From: Ignavibacteria bacterium RIFOXYC2_FULL_35_21
GTDB lineage: Bacteria > Bacteroidota > Ignavibacteria > Kapaibacteriales > UBA2268
DNA: 62,561 bases
Direction: 5' to 3'
Assembly (NCBI GenBank): GCA_001804705.1
Contig: MHAY01000067.1
Span: 1-62,561 of the forward strand
Numbering within the stretch: position 1 is the first letter of the stretch; every line of letters begins with the position of its first letter. Shown piece by piece: positions 155 through 32,508 of this stretch. The translations under genes were made by a program, and so were the position numbers. The notes beneath the pieces are model-generated. The model had not been told where the DNA came from, did no database searches, and saw only the letters and a list, made by a program, of their open reading frames with translations.

Positions 155-1300
155 TTACTTCTCATAAATTTCTTGCGGTTCACTGACAAAAAGCTGAGGT
201 TCTTCTGAGAATTTGTACCTAAATTTTATTGGCTTGCCTTTAATTGTTTTTATATCATTTAACGATTTAAGAAAGTCCGTCATTTTCCTTGCAGACCATT
301 CAATATTTGTTCTTTTAATAATCTCAACAGATGAAAGCTCTTTATCTTTGAGCAGGTCATAAACTCTGGTTTTTATTTCTTCATCCTTATCGGCAGGAGC
401 TACATCCTTTAACGGCTCCTCTATTAAGTTCCCATCAAAGTCCACAGCCTTTGCACCTTTTTGAATAAGTTTAAGATTAGCATTCAGTTCCCCTCGTTCG
501 GGGTAACGCACATAGATTGTTCTGTCTTTTCGCAATCCGTCTGTCACACCAGCCCAGGTGCCGCCCTTCTCGTCGGATTGAGCTACATATATTTCATCGG
601 CTAAACCGTAAATTATTGGGTTTCGAGCCATAGCCAATTGTACACTCCAGGGAGCCTTCGGGAAGAATGTGCTGAGAACAAGTAAGTCTCCTCTAACGAT
701 TTCGTTGTAATATTGCCTTATTCCCGAAGCAAATGTCAGAACTCCCTGTGGAAGTACAATTACACTATGTCCAATATACTTTATTGCCGAATCCAAAGCT
801 TGTCTGTCAACACCTTTTGCAAAACCGCTGACAACAACCTTGAACTGTTCGGAAGCCATCTTTGCAATGTTATCCGTGAATTTCAGGGATACTTCACTTG
901 CATTTCTCGAGCCGACAATTGCAATTGACTTTTCATTTAGAATTTTTTTATTACCTTTAACGTACAGAACAGGAGGTGAATGTTTAAGTTTAAGATTGCT
1001 TTTTAAAGTTGCAGAGTAATCCTCTGAATTGATTGTAATGATTTCAAATCCCTGTAATAATAGTTCTTCGGTCAGAAAAGAGAAGTTTGGAATCTCAATT
1101 TTTAAATTTAATAAGGCCACAATATCATTTCCCTGAAGGAGAAATTTCTCACTCCATTCTGTTATACTCAAATTGAAAAATTCTTCAAGCGATAATTTAT
1201 TTTCATGAAGAACACTAATAATCAGCTTGTTGATTTTTTCAATATTCCAGCCTTTTAGCTGGGTTAACCCAATCCAATATGGAATTTCTGACATTATCAT
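155..1300 (-). CDS. dprA: DprA/Smf-like DNA-processing protein
   Basis: A 381-residue protein with the DprA Rossmann-fold signature: IAIVGSRNAS at about residue 125 and VVSGFAKGVDRQALD at about 157, followed by a C-terminal winged-helix-like segment (about 310-355). DprA proteins bind single-stranded DNA and load RecA during transformation; relatives in the SLOG superfamily occur in conflict systems. The start ATG overlaps the stop of the upstream RecQ-fusion gene as ATGA, so the two are translationally coupled. A second ATG lies two codons later. I infer that this copy works with the helicase next to it and may not be a housekeeping DprA, because it sits with restriction-modification genes. 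The family call is strong; the role is inferred. Confidence 0.88.
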   Translation of the reverse strand: MIMSEIPYWIGLTQLKGWNIEKINKLIISVLHENKLSLEEFFNLSITEWSEKFLLQGNDIVALLNLKIEIPNFSFLTEELLLQGFEIITINSEDYSATLKSNLKLKHSPPVLYVKGNKKILNEKSIAIVGSRNASEVSLKFTDNIAKMASEQFKVVVSGFAKGVDRQALDSAIKYIGHSVIVLPQGVLTFASGIRQYYNEIVRGDLLVLSTFFPKAPWSVQLAMARNPIIYGLADEIYVAQSDEKGGTWAGVTDGLRKDRTIYVRYPERGELNANLKLIQKGAKAVDFDGNLIEEPLKDVAPADKDEEIKTRVYDLLKDKELSSVEIIKRTNIEWSARKMTDFLKSLNDIKTIKGKPIKFRYKFSEEPQLFVSEPQEIYEK

Positions 1301-3318
1301 TTAATATTGCCTCCGACCGTTTTTGCTATTACCAAAGGTGCAATCAGTTTAGCACCTAACAAAGTAAGATAGCGTCCTATTTCTTTTATTGTAGCTCCGC
1401 TGTCATATATATCGTCTATTAATAGTATAGACTTATCTTTAATATCTGCAACATTCAAATATAAAAAAGAATCACAAACATTTCTCATCTTAGATAAATG
1501 ATTCTGAAAAATTTTCTGCGGCTGTGTTTTTATACACTTGATTAGAGCATGAGAAATCTTTATATTTAACAGTTCGCATATTTTTATTGCAAAGTTTTTG
1601 ACTAAATCACCTGATTCTGTTGGAGGAACATACAAAATCAAATCTAATTTCAAATCTCCATAATGTTTACGGTATGCATTCAAAACTAATTGTATAAGCT
1701 CATCGGGAAAATCGCCCCCATTCTCATATTTACATTTGTGAATAGTACTACCGACTTTAGAGAATCCATAGAATGATGCCGCAACACCATTAATTAAATT
1801 ACTCTCATTTGATTTAAAATTCAGGACGGGGAAATTGTTAAATCTGAATTGTTCTAATTTCTTTAACCATTCATCTTGCACGATAACTTTTTTTATTATC
1901 TTATTTGTGTCAACATCACATTTCCCGCAGTTTTCAGTATAATTATCTCCAAGGTAATCGCAAAGAAATTTCATTCTGCAAGTGTCAATATCTACATACT
2001 GAATCATCTTTTCAAGTTCTTTCAGTTTTGTTTCTCTTAATTCTTCAAAAAGCTTAGTATTGAGTTTCGGGGCTAAAAATTTATATTCAAATTTTGCTTT
2101 TCCCCGAATAAATGTTTCGTTAATGATTTTCTGGTCAATCAAATCAGCAAGGATGACTCTTGTCTGTGTTGATGTTAGGTTCGATGCTAATATCAAATCA
2201 GTTTCACCCATTATTTTTTGCTTAATTAGATTAATAATCTTATCATATTTATCGAGTGATGGTTTTGAGCCATTGATGAAAGCTAAGGGTAAGTCAGTAT
2301 CTTCATCGGGATTATAAAATAGAATTATATAAGTTTTTATTCCGTCCCTGCCTGCTCTGCCGATTTCCTGGTAATAGTGTATAGGCGATTCGGGCATTTG
2401 AGTATGAAAGATGAATCTAATATCAGGTTTATCAATGCCCATTCCAAGAGCATTTGTAGAGACAATACATTTCCATCGGTTTTCGATTAAGCCTTTCTCA
2501 ATATTTTTTCTGGTTATCCCATCCAAATCCCCGTGATAGGCAACAGAAGGTATTCCGGCGAACTCAAGCCAGCTCGCATATATTTCGGCATTGCTTCTTG
2601 TACCTGTGTAGATTAATCCATTGCCATCGAATCTATTGATATTTCTTCCGAGCCAGATAAATTTTTCATCTTCAGATTTTACTTTAATAACATTCAGATG
2701 AAAATTACTCCTTAAAAGATTTCCACGAATTGAAGACATATTTTTTCCAATTTGAACTTTAATATCTTCTTCGACTTTAGGAGTGGCAGTAGCTGTGGTA
2801 GCGAGGATTGGGAAAGTGGTTGGAAGTAATCCTGCAAGATTCACTATTCGCCTGTATGATGGGCGGAAATCATGCCCCCACATAGAAATACAATGTGCTT
2901 CATCAACTACGAGCATTGATATTTTAATCTGGCTTGCAGTTTCTAACCATTCGGAATTTTCCATTCTTTCAGGTGCTATATATAAAATCTTTATTTTATT
3001 TTCTTTAGCATCCGAAATAATTCTATTATTTTCATTTAATGTTTGATTGGAATTAATGCAACTGGCATTTATACCTAATTGTTTCAGTTTATTGACTTGG
3101 TCTCTCATTAAGGCTATTAGAGGTGAGAATATAATCGTTGTGTCTTCAAATTGAGTAGCCGGAAACTGGAAACAAAGAGATTTGCCGTAGCCGGTCTTTT
3201 CAATTAATAAAATTCTATCGCCCTTGAAAATCTTTTCAATGACAGCCCACTGAGTGTCATAAAAGCTTTCTAATTTGAAAACTTTCTTTAAAATGACCTC
3301 AGCTTCAGTCCTTGTCAT
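1297..3318 (-). CDS. RecQ-family helicase fused to a ComF-like phosphoribosyltransferase
   Basis: A 673-residue protein. The N-terminal part is a RecQ superfamily-2 helicase: Walker A TGYGKS (about residues 42-47), DEAH box (139-142) and motif VI QEIGRAGRDG. A cysteine cluster follows at about residue 450-475 (CRMKFLC then CGKCD). The last zinc ligand of the usual RecQ pattern (C-x2-C-D-x-C) is replaced by Asp, while an extra Cys lies earlier. The C-terminal ~180 residues are a type I phosphoribosyltransferase domain, with the PRPP-binding motif ILLIDDIYDSGAT near residue 630 as in ComFC. It lies 24 bp downstream of the methyltransferase gene on the same strand and overlaps the DprA-like gene by 4 bp. 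Helicase and PRTase identities are clear; the substrate of the PRTase is unknown. Confidence 0.9.
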   Translation of the reverse strand: MTRTEAEVILKKVFKLESFYDTQWAVIEKIFKGDRILLIEKTGYGKSLCFQFPATQFEDTTIIFSPLIALMRDQVNKLKQLGINASCINSNQTLNENNRIISDAKENKIKILYIAPERMENSEWLETASQIKISMLVVDEAHCISMWGHDFRPSYRRIVNLAGLLPTTFPILATTATATPKVEEDIKVQIGKNMSSIRGNLLRSNFHLNVIKVKSEDEKFIWLGRNINRFDGNGLIYTGTRSNAEIYASWLEFAGIPSVAYHGDLDGITRKNIEKGLIENRWKCIVSTNALGMGIDKPDIRFIFHTQMPESPIHYYQEIGRAGRDGIKTYIILFYNPDEDTDLPLAFINGSKPSLDKYDKIINLIKQKIMGETDLILASNLTSTQTRVILADLIDQKIINETFIRGKAKFEYKFLAPKLNTKLFEELRETKLKELEKMIQYVDIDTCRMKFLCDYLGDNYTENCGKCDVDTNKIIKKVIVQDEWLKKLEQFRFNNFPVLNFKSNESNLINGVAASFYGFSKVGSTIHKCKYENGGDFPDELIQLVLNAYRKHYGDLKLDLILYVPPTESGDLVKNFAIKICELLNIKISHALIKCIKTQPQKIFQNHLSKMRNVCDSFLYLNVADIKDKSILLIDDIYDSGATIKEIGRYLTLLGAKLIAPLVIAKTVGGNIK

Positions 3319-3342: not shown

Positions 3343-4521
3343 TTAACAATTTGATTCAACCAAAAGGGATTCCTCATTTACAGTTTTTAACGATTTTAAT
3401 TCAAAATATTTGTAATCTATATTCTGTGAGAATAAATTATCTGAAATTGTTTTTAGTTTATCTTCAGTAATTCTTATTGCTTCGCTTGATTGGTCAATTC
3501 CAATCCAAGCTCTACCGTTTTTATGAGCGGCCTTTAAAGTGGTACCAGAACCACAAAAGCAATCCAATACAATACTACTTTCATTTGATGAAGTTTTTAT
3601 TATTATGTCTAGTAAATCAGAATTTTTTTCCGTTGGATAAACCGGATATTGAGGGTCTTTAAATTCCCAAATATCTTGAATCCGCTTACCTTCCTGCTCT
3701 TCAAAAAATATCTTTTTCCTTGGATTACCGGTTTCACTCCACTCTATTATACCTTCCGCATCCCATTTTTCTAATATTTTGATGTTGGTTCTCCAATGCC
3801 TACCTTTCGGTGGGTAAATTCCTTTAAAAGGTTTAGAAGTATTACCATTTTGAGTTTCTCCAGGGGCATGCAAAGGTATTGTTGTATAGTACCTTCCATC
3901 TTTATCAATTTTGGAAAAGAGTTTAGTTCTATCTTCATCAGTATATTGAATTTTTGGTTCATTCCAAATAAAATTATCGGTTTTGGAATAAAATAGGATT
4001 AAATCTTTTATATTGCCATACCCTTTTCTGTTAAAATTTTTTGGATTGCATTTTATTCTACCAATATCATTTCGATAATTTTCTAAACCGAAGATTTCAT
4101 CCATGATAATTTTAACATAATGGCCTATCTTATAGTCTGTATGTAAATAAATTGAACCTTTGTCAGATAATAGTAATTTTAGTAGTACTAATCTTTCACG
4201 GAGAAATTCAATAAATTCTGCTCCTTTTAATTTGTCCTTATACGCAATAGTACCATTTGCGATATTGCTAATCGTATTAGCTCTTCCTTCCGATATTGTG
4301 AAGGTGTTGTTTGTAGCAAAAGGTGGATCTATATAAACTAAATCAATCTTTCCTGTCAAATCAAATTTTGTTATGAGTTGTTTTAAAGCAATGAGATTAT
4401 CTGAATTAATAAGTAGATTATCGCTGTCAGATTTATTTTTTTGGATTAATTCTAAATCAGGGATATTGTTAAATATTTCCTTTTCGGTTCTTTTATTTTG
4501 ATAATGAAGTTTCATATTCAT
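3343..4521 (-). CDS. site-specific DNA methyltransferase, beta class (N6-adenine or N4-cytosine)
   Basis: A 392-residue methyltransferase. The catalytic motif IV is IDPPF at residues 64-68, and the AdoMet-binding motif I (LDCFCGSGTT) comes near the C-terminus at about 320. This order (IV before I) defines the beta class of amino-methyltransferases. It transfers a methyl group from AdoMet to an exocyclic amino group in a recognition site and would protect the host from the endonuclease encoded just upstream. The two genes abut, with the endonuclease stop one base beyond the methyltransferase ATG. A second ATG two codons downstream is an equally possible start. The recognition sequence cannot be read from the protein. 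Confidence 0.9.
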   Translation of the reverse strand: MNMKLHYQNKRTEKEIFNNIPDLELIQKNKSDSDNLLINSDNLIALKQLITKFDLTGKIDLVYIDPPFATNNTFTISEGRANTISNIANGTIAYKDKLKGAEFIEFLRERLVLLKLLLSDKGSIYLHTDYKIGHYVKIIMDEIFGLENYRNDIGRIKCNPKNFNRKGYGNIKDLILFYSKTDNFIWNEPKIQYTDEDRTKLFSKIDKDGRYYTTIPLHAPGETQNGNTSKPFKGIYPPKGRHWRTNIKILEKWDAEGIIEWSETGNPRKKIFFEEQEGKRIQDIWEFKDPQYPVYPTEKNSDLLDIIIKTSSNESSIVLDCFCGSGTTLKAAHKNGRAWIGIDQSSEAIRITEDKLKTISDNLFSQNIDYKYFELKSLKTVNEESLLVESNC

Positions 4522-5304
4522 TTATAATTGATATAGAAATTCACGCAAAACAAGACTGCTCATAATATTATAACTCTCATACTTAGTTGTGATATCTTTA
4601 AACATTTTATTTCTTCCTTTAATATATAATACACCATCAAGTATTGCTATTTTAACAGCCTTGACATTTTTTGTTTCTAAAGTGCTGATTGCATCATTAA
4701 ATTGAGCATTTTGATGACCACCGAAATCAGTAAGGAACTTAGCTTCACCGATTACATATTGCCCATTAAAGCGTCCTATGAAATCAAGGCCTTTGTTACG
4801 TTTATAATTCAAATCGCTTTTCGCAAAAGCCATTAATTGGCTATCGCTTCCTTTTAGAATTGCATCTTTTTTGTTTTTCAGAAATTCATCATGTTCTAAT
4901 GGTTTTAATCCAAGTGATTTGTTATTTAGCCACCGATTAAATAGTGGCCCTATTTGGCGGTTTGTTTCTTTTGGTTCGCTACATCTCTCGAAAATTTTAT
5001 TTAAACCCATTTCATAAAGTCGTCCACAAATCCTTCTGATTGTTTTAGGATTTCTGGTGATAGAAGATGGGTCTCTTTTAAGAAATGCAATATAGCTGTC
5101 TTTTATGGGGAATAATTTTAGCTTTAATAATTCATTGATTAACAATTCATTATTTTTTTTCTTAAAAGCAATTTCAATATTTTTCCAACTTTCATTATCA
5201 ATATCTCTTATACCTTCGGGAATAGTTGGATAGACCTGGAAAAGGTCATCAAGATATGACTTTTGGTTTGCATATTCGATGCTTAATTCAATCCAATAAT
5301 TCAT
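4522..5304 (-). CDS. type II restriction endonuclease, PD-(D/E)xK fold
   Basis: A 260-residue protein with a PD-(D/E)xK-like active site: D174 in GLDFIGRF and E187-x-K189 in VIGEAKF, followed by a Gln-rich stretch (HQNAQFND) often seen after the core Lys. The N-terminal half contains an Arg-rich stretch and NRQIGPLFNRWL. I have a weak recollection of Tsp45I-like enzymes, not verified. The gene is immediately upstream of the beta-class methyltransferase on the same strand, the classic type II pair. Family assignment rests on motif and context. Confidence 0.75.
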   Translation of the reverse strand: MNYWIELSIEYANQKSYLDDLFQVYPTIPEGIRDIDNESWKNIEIAFKKKNNELLINELLKLKLFPIKDSYIAFLKRDPSSITRNPKTIRRICGRLYEMGLNKIFERCSEPKETNRQIGPLFNRWLNNKSLGLKPLEHDEFLKNKKDAILKGSDSQLMAFAKSDLNYKRNKGLDFIGRFNGQYVIGEAKFLTDFGGHQNAQFNDAISTLETKNVKAVKIAILDGVLYIKGRNKMFKDITTKYESYNIMSSLVLREFLYQL

Positions 5305-5767: not shown

Positions 5768-7966
5768 TCATTTTACAATAAAAACAATATCACCAATAGC
5801 TTTATATACAATACTTCTATTTTTGTATTTAAAGGATATTTTCAAATCATCAATATTTTTTTTCGAGAAACTATCAAGATAATTCATAATACTTGGAGTT
5901 AATAAATCTAGATTACGTTTCAATTTCCAGGAATTGTCAAAGTCATCCGTATCAACCAAAACAAGAAATAATCTATTTGAAGAGTCAAATCTCATTTCAC
6001 CTTGTTCTTCATAAAGGTTTTGAACAAGTAGTCTGGGATAATTCATTGCTTCTTTTAGAATTTCAATTCTTACTTTTTTGATTTCATTCAGTGCATTTAA
6101 ACAAAAATCATCATTTTTGTTTTTCATTTTCTCTACAATTTCATAATATGTATCGTCAGCTTTTTTATGATTAGAATATGTAATCAAGGCTTGCTTTGCT
6201 TTTTGTTTCAATTCTGTTAATTCAGTTTTTAAACCAAGTTCTTTTCTTTTTTCCTCGATATAATTAGCTGGAAGATAAGTAACCTTTAAATCAAAAGGAA
6301 TGTTATTAATAAAGAAATCGACTTTCTTAATTTGACCTAACGTTGGAAGTACAATAGGATGAGATTTGAAAATATATTCAATAAGAATGCTAGACCAATG
6401 ATTATACCAGCTACAAAGAAGATATCCATAAACTGCTCTGTTTATTTCATTATCAAATTTTGAAATTAATTCATCATATTTCTTATATACTTTTACATAC
6501 CTATCAACTAAGTATCTATCAAGAGCATTTTTATAATCACCACCCCAGTCAAAATATTTTAACTTATAAAGTTCAGAAACTAGCTCATCTTTGTTTATAA
6601 GTGATAATTCATCCTGGTTTTTTTGTTTGAAATATGAATCTAAAATAGAGTGAGAATTTTCCAAATCTTTGGAAAGAATATTATAGATTTCATTGAATTG
6701 GTTATTCAACGTTTTTGAAGATATTTGAATATTAATCTTTTCAATAAAATCCTCAAGAAATTCCTTTCTGGTAATTGATTTTATTTTAAGCCATAATAAT
6801 GCTGATGAATTAAAATTAAATTCTTCAAGTCTGTATGAATCATAACGCTCTTTCCAATAGTTAAAATCCTTAACTAAATCTTTCATAGAAAAACCTATAT
6901 TTAATAACGGATAATTTTTACAAACAAATAAAATTTCATTACTTCCTGCCACACTACCTTTACCGCCTCTTCCATTAAGATATGTTTGAGATTCAATACT
7001 TACATTTTTATATTTTTTCAGGATATTTTCTAATTCATTTATACTAGGATAACTTCTATTATTCCAACTTATTAACCAATTTGGTATATCTTTTGATAAA
7101 GAAAATAGTTGATTTAATGATTTAACAATATCTTGCTTTTTATCAAAACCACTATACTTTTTTGGTTCATATCTCTTTATATTATTTATAAAACTTTTAT
7201 CTTTCCAATATTCAACGAAAGTCTCAAGTAAATGATAAAAACTCTGATAATCGGCATGACTGTCGCAATATGGTGGATCGAAATATATTAAGTCAATTTT
7301 ATCTAATTTTGGTAATAAATCTAAAATATTTTCATGACAACTAAGATTTTCTTTTCCATTATCAAAAATTGCGCTATTATAAATTGGAACTAAATCTTTA
7401 ATTATATCTTTTATAAGTCTCGCTAAATTTGGATTTCTTTTGACTCTATCTGGACTATTGGCATAATTTAAAGCTTGTGTATGAGCGAAATGTCCCATAG
7501 TAACTTTTCTTGTTAGGCTCCTATTGACCAGAGTAAAAGCGAGAGCTTCTTTATATTTATTTTCAAGTAATTCAATATTAGCTCTCACTTTATCTAAAAA
7601 TTCAGCTTGATCTTCCTCAAAAAAAACATTTGTATATGTTTCTTTAAATAAAGTGAAATTTGAGTAATCAAAATTTTCATTTGAAAATAGAAAATTTAAA
7701 TCATCATTTGATAGAGTTACATTGGAATTTTCAATAAGTGATAGTCCAATTTGATGATTAAAATTGAGAAAATCATTTGTTATTGTTCTAATACCAAGTT
7801 GCTTAAATAGAAAAGCTACTGACTGCGAACCCGCAAAGGCATCTAATGCTGTATCAATGTTCTTTGGAATATATTTATTTATCCAGCTAAGCCAAATATA
7901 TTTAGCTCCAAGGTATTGAGGTTCAGGAAATTTATATTCAAAATATGTATTATCTTTAAAAAGCAT
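5768..7966 (-). CDS. D12-class adenine methyltransferase fused to a PD-(D/E)xK-like domain
   Basis: A 732-residue protein. Residues 1-350 form a Dam/D12-class N6-adenine methyltransferase: motif I LDAFAGS at 41-47 and catalytic DPPY at 230-233, with a C-terminal methyltransferase strand EILFVCKN near 344-351. Residues about 360-732 are extra. They contain HPIVLPTLGQIKKVDFF followed by PFDLKV, which reads as a PD-(D/E)xK active site (D550, D559-x-K561), with long charged helices after it. The simplest reading is a one-polypeptide restriction-modification enzyme. D12 enzymes are normally ~270-300 residues, so the fusion is unusual. It sits between another complete R-M pair and an exonuclease gene. 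The nuclease domain is inferred from motif spacing alone. Confidence 0.8.
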   Translation of the reverse strand: MLFKDNTYFEYKFPEPQYLGAKYIWLSWINKYIPKNIDTALDAFAGSQSVAFLFKQLGIRTITNDFLNFNHQIGLSLIENSNVTLSNDDLNFLFSNENFDYSNFTLFKETYTNVFFEEDQAEFLDKVRANIELLENKYKEALAFTLVNRSLTRKVTMGHFAHTQALNYANSPDRVKRNPNLARLIKDIIKDLVPIYNSAIFDNGKENLSCHENILDLLPKLDKIDLIYFDPPYCDSHADYQSFYHLLETFVEYWKDKSFINNIKRYEPKKYSGFDKKQDIVKSLNQLFSLSKDIPNWLISWNNRSYPSINELENILKKYKNVSIESQTYLNGRGGKGSVAGSNEILFVCKNYPLLNIGFSMKDLVKDFNYWKERYDSYRLEEFNFNSSALLWLKIKSITRKEFLEDFIEKINIQISSKTLNNQFNEIYNILSKDLENSHSILDSYFKQKNQDELSLINKDELVSELYKLKYFDWGGDYKNALDRYLVDRYVKVYKKYDELISKFDNEINRAVYGYLLCSWYNHWSSILIEYIFKSHPIVLPTLGQIKKVDFFINNIPFDLKVTYLPANYIEEKRKELGLKTELTELKQKAKQALITYSNHKKADDTYYEIVEKMKNKNDDFCLNALNEIKKVRIEILKEAMNYPRLLVQNLYEEQGEMRFDSSNRLFLVLVDTDDFDNSWKLKRNLDLLTPSIMNYLDSFSKKNIDDLKISFKYKNRSIVYKAIGDIVFIVK

Positions 7967-31347: not shown

Positions 31348-32508
31348 ATGGATATCAATCGCAATTTTACTAATGAACAAATTCTTTTGAGAGACACTGT
31401 CAGAAAATTTGCCGAAGAAGTAATCAAGCCAAAAGCTCGTGAACTGGATGAGAAGGAAGAATTCTCTTATGAAAACACAAAAAAAATGGCTGAGATGGGA
31501 TTACTCTCATGCTTTCTGCCGGATAAGTATAATGGAGCTGGACTTGACTATGTTTCTTATATAATGGTTGTCGAAGAGCTGGCACGTGTTGACGGTTCTC
31601 ATGCAGCGACAATTGCAGCTCATAATTCACTCGGAGCAGGTCCATTATACTATTATGGCAATGAAGAGCAAAAGAAAAAATATCTTCCGAAATTTGCAGA
31701 AGGATATTTATGGGGATTTGGATTAACTGAGCCTGAGGCTGGTTCTGATGCCGGAAATACTCAAACAACTGCCGTTCAGGATGGAGATTACTGGGTGCTT
31801 AACGGGTCAAAGATTTTCATTACAAATGCTTCGACAGATATAACACTCGGCTCAACTGTTCTTGCATGTACAGGCACTAAACCAGGAGGAAAGAAAGAAC
31901 TTTCCTGCTTCATAGTAGAAAACGGAACTCCCGGTTTTACTACAAAAGCTATGAAAAACAAACTGATGTGGAGAGCCTCAAACACAAGCGAACTTTATTT
32001 TGAGGATTGCCGTGTACATAAAGATAATATGCTTGGCAAAAGAGGAGACGGTTTCCACCAGATGCTCGGCACACTCGACAACGGAAGGCTTTCCATTGCC
32101 GCTATGGGTCTTGGATGCGCCCAAGGAGCTTATGAAGCCGCGTTAAATTATGCAAAAGGAAGAAAGCAGTTCGGCAAATCAATTTCAACATACCAGGCAA
32201 CAGCATTTAAACTTGCTGATGTTGACATGGGTTTGGAACTCGCAAGAAATTATCTGTATGAAGTTTGCCGTATGTTGGACAGGAATGAAAATATTACAAA
32301 GGAAGGTGCTATTGCAAAACTTAATTGCTCTGAACTTGCTCATACGGCGGCAAACCATTGCGTTCAAATTCACGGAGGCTATGGCTTAATGAAAGAATAC
32401 GATGCGGAAAGATTTTACCGCGACCAGAAATTACTTGAAATCGGCGAGGGTACTTCCGAAATTCAAAGATTAGTCATATCGAGAATGATTGGTTGTTTTG
32501 ATGTTTAA
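31348..32508 (+). CDS. acyl-CoA dehydrogenase (second copy, divergent)
   Basis: A 386-residue acyl-CoA dehydrogenase with FGLTEPEAGSDAGNTQTT near residue 130, NKLMWRASNTSELYFEDC near 210, IHGGYGLMKEYDAERFYRD near 345 and the catalytic Glu367 in EIGEGTSEIQRL. AAGGA precedes the ATG. It is only moderately similar to the neighbour at 29939-31078, so the two probably take different acyl groups. The 269-bp gap between them carries both promoters. With MCC and LiuC close by, isovaleryl-CoA is a natural substrate for one of them, by inference. Confidence 0.9.
   Translation: MDINRNFTNEQILLRDTVRKFAEEVIKPKARELDEKEEFSYENTKKMAEMGLLSCFLPDKYNGAGLDYVSYIMVVEELARVDGSHAATIAAHNSLGAGPLYYYGNEEQKKKYLPKFAEGYLWGFGLTEPEAGSDAGNTQTTAVQDGDYWVLNGSKIFITNASTDITLGSTVLACTGTKPGGKKELSCFIVENGTPGFTTKAMKNKLMWRASNTSELYFEDCRVHKDNMLGKRGDGFHQMLGTLDNGRLSIAAMGLGCAQGAYEAALNYAKGRKQFGKSISTYQATAFKLADVDMGLELARNYLYEVCRMLDRNENITKEGAIAKLNCSELAHTAANHCVQIHGGYGLMKEYDAERFYRDQKLLEIGEGTSEIQRLVISRMIGCFDV

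Follow-up and report, generated by a model that had tools for sequence, protein, structure and literature searches.

A divergent PsyrTA (RqlHI)-type gene pair beside a restriction-modification system in an Ignavibacteria genome

The window analysed here is a stretch of 62,561 nucleotides (nt) of DNA from Ignavibacteria bacterium RIFOXYC2_FULL_35_21 (assembly GCA_001804705.1, contig MHAY01000067.1), and the present study deals with two genes at its beginning, which encode a helicase fused to a phosphoribosyltransferase (PRTase) and a DprA-like protein. Both open reading frames (ORFs) were confirmed on the minus strand. The upstream gene, psyrT (rqlH), is located at 1297-3318(-) and encodes a putative toxin of 673 amino acids (aa) with a RecQ-family helicase (residues ~1-470) and a C-terminal PRTase (residues ~480-673), as assigned with PADLOC, Pfam and AlphaFold2. 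The downstream gene, psyrA (rqlI), is located at 155-1300(-) and encodes a DprA-like putative antitoxin of 381 aa, which was assigned by the PADLOC model PsyrA, the Pfam family PF02481 and a structure model. Since the junction reads AATATTAAATGATAATG on the minus strand, the TGA stop codon of psyrT shares 4 nt (ATGA, 1297-1300(-)) with the ATG start codon of psyrA; a GGAGG sequence is located upstream of the latter. An earlier note, made from the sequence of this DNA alone, had described the 4-bp overlap, a RecQ helicase with a C-terminal PRTase carrying the motif IDDIYDSGAT, and DprA as the second product. All of these were recovered: the Pfam domains DEAD, Helicase_C, RecQ_Zn_bind and Pribosyltran as well as the motif are present in the fusion, and the second protein matched PF02481 (DNA_processg_A) with 139.5 bits.

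For the assignment to a family, both proteins were compared with profile models. The PADLOC model PsyrT (PDLC03928) matched the fusion with 841.5 bits (E 1.2e-253) from residue 2 to residue 671 of 673, covering profile positions 2-688 of 689, and the model PsyrA (PDLC03927) matched the DprA-like protein with 265 bits (E 3e-79) at residues 27-348. The fusion passed the broader RecQ family model TIGR00614 (338.1 bits, cut-off 219.8) and fell short of the recQ equivalog model TIGR01389 (373.9 bits, cut-off 640.2), which separates it from canonical RecQ. Its PRTase had been called ComFC-like in the earlier note; a match to the ComF model TIGR00201 exists but is weak (27.8 bits, cut-off 233.55), and the protein was not assigned to the ComF family. 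Likewise, the ShosT model gave only 19.4 bits, and with its PRTase fused to RecQ the protein is not a member of ShosTA. Membership of PsyrTA was judged by a full-length PsyrT match, an adjacent and overlapping psyrA gene, intact Walker A, DEAH and acidic phosphoribosyl pyrophosphate (PRPP)-site residues and a separate canonical DprA, each of which was found.

The Walker A residue K46 and the DEAH box residues D139 and H142 are identical in all 32 aligned PsyrT sequences, the window protein included. The same holds for D635 and D636 of the PRPP site (IDDIYDSGAT), and D639 is kept in 29 of the 32 sequences. The motifs place K46, D139 and D639 at the positions of K49, D148 and D663, which were mutated in E. 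coli RqlH according to PMC4670107; an E. coli relative was aligned here in place of the F11 protein. The AlphaFold2 model of PsyrT had a mean pLDDT (predicted local distance difference test) of 89.5, and the 50 matches listed in a fold search with this model were RecQ-type helicases. When the PRTase sequence was searched against solved structures, weak matches were obtained, nearly all to purine PRTases (best E 0.0098). The structure model of PsyrA (mean pLDDT 92.8) matched DprA and ShosA (8zva, template modelling score by query 0.60) and, more weakly, a molybdenum-cofactor carrier and LOG phosphoribohydrolases. In agreement with this, its sequence profile matched the ShosA structure 9vzo with E 7.6e-26 and LOG with E 2e-4.

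In order to analyse how regularly the fusion is paired with DprA, two surveys were performed with hidden Markov models (HMMs) of PsyrT, built from the window and 13 other loci, and of DprA, built from the window, 9 other PsyrA proteins and the canonical DprA of the genome. Because the alignments behind these HMMs all stem from genomes of the window's phylum, the pairing counts within the phylum are partly given by construction, which does not apply to the counts for named loci. For the named genomes, the best 80 loci of a longer profile-search list were scored with helicase, PRTase and DprA models. At 37 of these loci the PRTase scored 100 bits or more, and in 30 of the 37 a DprA gene follows downstream on the same strand, while three end at a contig border. 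The 40 lower-scoring fusions, mostly actinobacterial, comprise two with DprA, one at a contig edge and 37 with none, and three further loci had no intact fusion. These counts agree with the report that RqlH is paired in Gram-negative and solo in Gram-positive bacteria (PMC4670107). The toxin gene stands upstream at the surveyed loci and overlaps or nearly overlaps the DprA gene, as has been reported for rqlH and rqlI (PMC4670107). Thus, the pairing of the fusion with DprA recurs far beyond chance; chance pairing, which the earlier note had put forward as the outcome that would overturn its reading, is not upheld by the 30 of 37 well-scoring loci.

In the phylum scan (296 genomes, that of the window included), 27 PsyrT matches of at least 711 bits were found in 26 genomes, and the next best match scored 416; three candidates were scored per genome, so these numbers are lower bounds. 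Near-full-length PsyrT (at least 781 bits) is present in at least 23 of the 296 genomes, including that of the window, in addition to three cut or interrupted copies. Of the 27 matches, four are not among these 23, namely two that lie at contig ends, one interrupted copy and one whose locus was not fetched. DprA adjoins PsyrT in 22 of the 23 full-length loci, among them the window; in one of the 22 (L017) it is found only as two weak fragments. At the sole unpaired locus (L014), an ORF at 3561-3917 after psyrT keeps, as judged by eye, a PsyrA-like C-terminal end, and the antitoxin gene looks decayed with the toxin frame still open. Two groups of PsyrT are seen within the phylum: six aligned proteins resemble that of the window, to which they are 58-63% identical, and seven are more distant, with 29-32% identity. 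Several relatives also encode an ordinary RecQ, whose frame spans ~860-910 aa. As a side observation outside the phylum, helicase and PRTase are encoded by separate ORFs in Halorubrum cibi (L060, 9980-13129), where the next gene encodes an ADP-ribosylglycohydrolase (PF03747, 269.6 bits) and not DprA. Such an enzyme was considered as an alternative partner and rejected, being a single case; the one other haloarchaeal copy inspected has none annotated nearby in an incomplete gene table. Among mobile elements, 25 of 50,697 phage records matched PsyrT at E 1e-20, none of them covering 80% of the protein, so that a full-length phage-borne PsyrT was not found at this threshold; 222 of 72,556 plasmids matched, four of which cover 80%.

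Systems of this type have been described before. RqlH was reported to be genotoxic when RqlI is missing, the toxicity requiring the PRTase domain, and RqlI, which contains a region of DprA homology, counters RqlH, interacts with it and forms an operon with it (Russell and Mulvey 2015, PMC4670107). The same paper names PsyrT of P. syringae as the RqlH orthologue and cites Sberro 2013 for its toxicity without PsyrA, and later papers treat PsyrTA as a defence system. A DprA-PRTase pair of P2-like phages was found to protect against phage, and DprA homologues were grouped as antitoxins of shosTA, syrTA and rqlHI (Rousset et al., PMC9122126). ShosT has been described as a phosphoribosyltransferase and pyrophosphatase which upsets purine metabolism, and ShosA as a DNA-binding protein (review PMC12593503 on Pu et al. 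2025). The window pair shares with ShosTA and the P2-like phage pair a PRTase with a DprA-like partner, and its PsyrA aligns to ShosA structures; unlike theirs, its PRTase is fused to a helicase, the ShosT model of 237 positions suggesting a protein without one. With PsyrTA (RqlHI) of E. coli it has in common the order of RecQ-PRTase and DprA-like genes with the toxin gene first, the overlap and the catalytic motifs, whereas it is only ~32% identical, has partly lost the zinc site and has next to it a restriction-modification (R-M) system of type II instead of type I.

Given the full-length family match, the gene order, the overlap, the conserved helicase and PRPP-site residues and the pairing across many taxa established here, the family identity of the pair as PsyrTA (RqlHI) is close to certain. 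The window pair is a divergent further copy of the already described PsyrTA and no new DNA-import machine. Very probably, it constitutes a toxin–antitoxin-type defence pair which, together with the adjacent Tsp45I-type R-M system, makes up a small defence cluster. Judging from the tested relatives, PsyrT and PsyrA would form a complex in which PsyrA as well as the helicase domain would silence the PRTase domain, which is required for toxicity. Most likely, PsyrA restrains the PRTase of PsyrT until a disturbance, which might be a phage attack on DNA metabolism, frees it, and the freed PsyrT would then cause DNA stress, filamentation and growth arrest. As the comparison with ShosTA suggests, the target of PsyrT is probably the nucleotide pool or bases close to DNA; its chemistry is a guess.

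Several points weigh against this interpretation. The Pribosyltran match at residues 621-660 of the fusion reached 26.2 bits, just below the Pfam cut-off of 26.3. Moreover, the function is transferred across a distance, the identity of the window PsyrT to the aligned E. coli protein being only 32%. Four of the 37 well-scoring named loci (L046, L069, L079 and L110) have no DprA. The zinc site is incomplete: cysteines are present at positions 447, 453, 464 and 467, the usual fourth one is absent, and C453 is extra. The shifted cysteine mentioned in the earlier note is therefore correct as a description. Among six close relatives in one alignment, all six keep the counterparts of C453 and C467, and the counterparts of C447 and C464 remain in one. 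On these sequences, the clade of the window is losing its zinc site, and the nearest relatives have lost further ligands; due to this erosion, the shift is seen as a feature of the clade and gives no sign of a new function. From the literature, RqlHI was called non-canonical as a toxin–antitoxin system and the PRTase domain of RqlH by itself was not toxic (PMC4670107). PsyrTA is under-represented in the defence islands of metagenome genomes, though inside such islands it co-localises with other families (PMC10924106). In addition, expression of E. coli PsyrTA gave a growth defect and no detectable phage protection in the assay of PMC12409345. The suggestion of an anti-invader module in the earlier note fits the PADLOC assignment and the R-M setting; as phage protection by PsyrTA was not seen in that assay, it rests on the family assignment and on related systems, and is plausible.

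The pair is located next to R-M genes. A type II DNA methyltransferase (N6_N4_Mtase) is encoded at 3343-4521(-) (PADLOC MTase_II 567.8 bits; PF01555 146.3 bits), abutted by a Tsp45I-type restriction endonuclease at 4522-5304(-) (PF06300 408.7 bits; PADLOC REase_II 442.7 bits). The gap between the end of the methylase gene and the start of psyrT is 24 nt, and endonuclease, methylase, psyrT and psyrA form a run of four genes on one strand. A second possible R-M element is a D12-type adenine methyltransferase of 732 aa at 5768-7966(-) (PADLOC MTase_II 166.3 bits, residues 11-351; PF02086 50.4 bits), with a GC content of 25.9% compared to 34.9% for the window. Other than methyltransferase models, all PADLOC and Pfam matches of this ORF were below threshold, and its C-terminal part of ~380 aa was not identified by scans with PADLOC, Pfam or NCBIfam; it may be a fused restriction enzyme. 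Of the two adjoining restriction systems claimed in the earlier note, the Tsp45I-type pair (3343-5304(-)) is thus complete, and the other consists of methyltransferase matches only. Beyond 9.2 kb, ten sampled genes of the window are mostly housekeeping-like (BamD-like, type 9 secretion plug, RecG, 3-hydroxyacyl-CoA dehydrogenase and others). Three window ORFs of 386 aa (31348, 34878 and 36591) were considered as repeats and rejected; the equal length looks coincidental because DNA alignment showed no long matching stretch among them, and the ORF at 31348 encodes an acyl-CoA dehydrogenase.

The R-M setting recurs at other paired loci. The genes psyrTA are enclosed by hsdS and hsdR in E. coli DA33133, in Providencia and in the Bacteroidia genome L044, in the last case with three small genes before psyrT (L123, 2664-12743; L076, 6695-16683; L044, 4768-16426), and the order in E. 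coli and Providencia is hsdMS-psyrTA-hsdR. At locus L054 hsdS precedes psyrTA, at L063 hsdR follows it, at L055 HmaB lies before and HmaC after the pair, and at L064 HmaB lies before it. Together with L044 and L076, at least six of the 32 named paired loci have an R-M or Hma gene on the same strand within 150 nt; immediate neighbours were scanned in eight loci and the genes of L076 and L044 were also identified by blastp, so that 6 of 32 is a lower bound. Furthermore, an HmaA-like helicase (L045) and a GmrSD-like protein (Orf5/HEC-06; L050) are encoded just upstream of the pair. Of 5426 E. coli genomes, 53 carry the psyrTA allele of the E. coli hsdMS-psyrTA-hsdR locus, and a query extending from psyrA into hsdR is likewise covered in 53, the two sets not being matched name by name. 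In a looser search, the Providencia pair gave partial matches in 1655 of the 5426 genomes, with more than 80% of the query covered in 54. For a comparison of wider neighbourhoods, 13 of 16 chosen paired loci (96 proteins) and 10 of 16 solo loci (93 proteins) were used, with mechanical gene calls and ORFs below 120 or above 1500 aa left out. At E 1e-10, 500 PADLOC models matched near the paired loci; the most-matched ones, with two to four proteins each among the 25 models listed, were for the most part those of type I methylase, specificity and mads. Near the solo loci 18 models matched, none of them R-M. This comparison is a rough control, as the phyla differ and the counts refer to matched models, many of them redundant, and not to proteins. 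The actinobacterial solo RqlH shares the RecQ-PRTase fusion with the window and differs from it in that nearly all copies have no DprA partner and no R-M model was among the PADLOC matches of the 93 scanned neighbours.

Based on these neighbours, the pair could be a guard coupled to R-M, which is co-expressed with the R-M operon and whose toxin is triggered by an attack on the R-M enzyme or on the host. The 24-nt distance to the Tsp45I-type genes, the hsdMS-psyrTA-hsdR order together with the 53 of 5426 E. coli genomes carrying that allele, and the Hma genes at L055 and L064 are in line with such a coupling. It is nevertheless unlikely: among the named paired loci checked, an R-M or Hma gene lies within 150 nt in only the six of 32, so that the adjacency to R-M genes which the earlier note proposed to examine is found at these and is not shown for most loci. 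In addition, other defence genes, namely DarTG2 (PMC12255303) and TgvAB (PMC11411939), have been reported inside type I R-M operons, and such a position may mean no more than shared regulation or transfer. Among the literature matches listed, no paper on PsyrTA embedded in R-M operons was found; preprints (Payne 2024) lay outside these matches, and novelty is not claimed. It would be a long shot that PsyrTA is wired to R-M and Hma operons in such a way that the PRTase toxin guards the restriction enzyme and the DprA-like partner, with its LOG-like fold, senses or undoes the PRTase product.

Quite unlikely as well is a housekeeping role, in which RqlH and RqlI would act as a DNA-repair helicase and its accessory regulator, cooperating in genome maintenance and not in defence. 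A beneficial DNA function was indeed proposed by Russell and Mulvey (PMC4670107), and the title of Ordonez 2012 describes RqlH of M. smegmatis as a functional 3′-5′ helicase. The 37 DprA-free fusions among the 40 low-scoring ones also speak for this role, as does the window PsyrT being the only RecQ above the family cut-off in its genome. Against this stand the patchy distribution of near-full-length PsyrT within the phylum, the R-M neighbours and the E. coli double deletion, for which no fitness loss was reported (PMC4670107).

Finally, the competence analogy was considered. The earlier note had read the pair as a unit which rebuilds the activities of competence with a different helicase, serving DNA import or acting against invaders. 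It was right that helicase, PRTase and DprA activities are combined, as the domains are present and their pairing is recurrent; the pair itself is the already described PsyrTA (RqlHI) and the analogy is in print, ComF and DprA having been discussed for RqlHI in PMC4670107 and a unit of PRTase-helicase and DprA having been called a 'related system' to ComFA/ComFC in PMC5512222. The source genome (completeness 97.75%) encodes on other contigs one ComEC (177.1 bits), a ComF-like protein (102.7 bits, below the strict TIGR00201 cut-off of 233.55) and a second DprA-family protein. The latter is the canonical copy, with 227.1 bits compared to 141.4 for the window copy, and the window gene is consequently not a sole DprA serving ordinary competence, an outcome that the earlier note had named as fatal to its idea; ExPEC (extraintestinal pathogenic E. 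coli) likewise carry a second, more canonical DprA (PMC4670107). A DNA-import module, in which the pair would handle incoming single-stranded DNA in a complex like that of ComFA, ComFC and DprA, shares these kinds of domains and could point to the ComFC-DprA interaction in C. jejuni and S. pneumoniae (PMC9005727), but is very improbable, as no finding favours import, the helicase is RecQ-type, the PRTase is weakly ComF-like, com-type genes lie elsewhere in the genome, several relatives adjoin R-M and Hma genes, and transformation was undetectable by the authors of PMC4670107 with their E. coli isolates.

A striking fusion which resembles a rebuilt competence machinery thus turns out to be a catalogued toxin–antitoxin defence pair. 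If PsyrTA were wired to R-M operons, the window run of endonuclease, methylase, psyrT and psyrA would represent the type II version of that coupling. Moreover, the divergent clade with its degraded zinc site provides a useful comparison set for the family.

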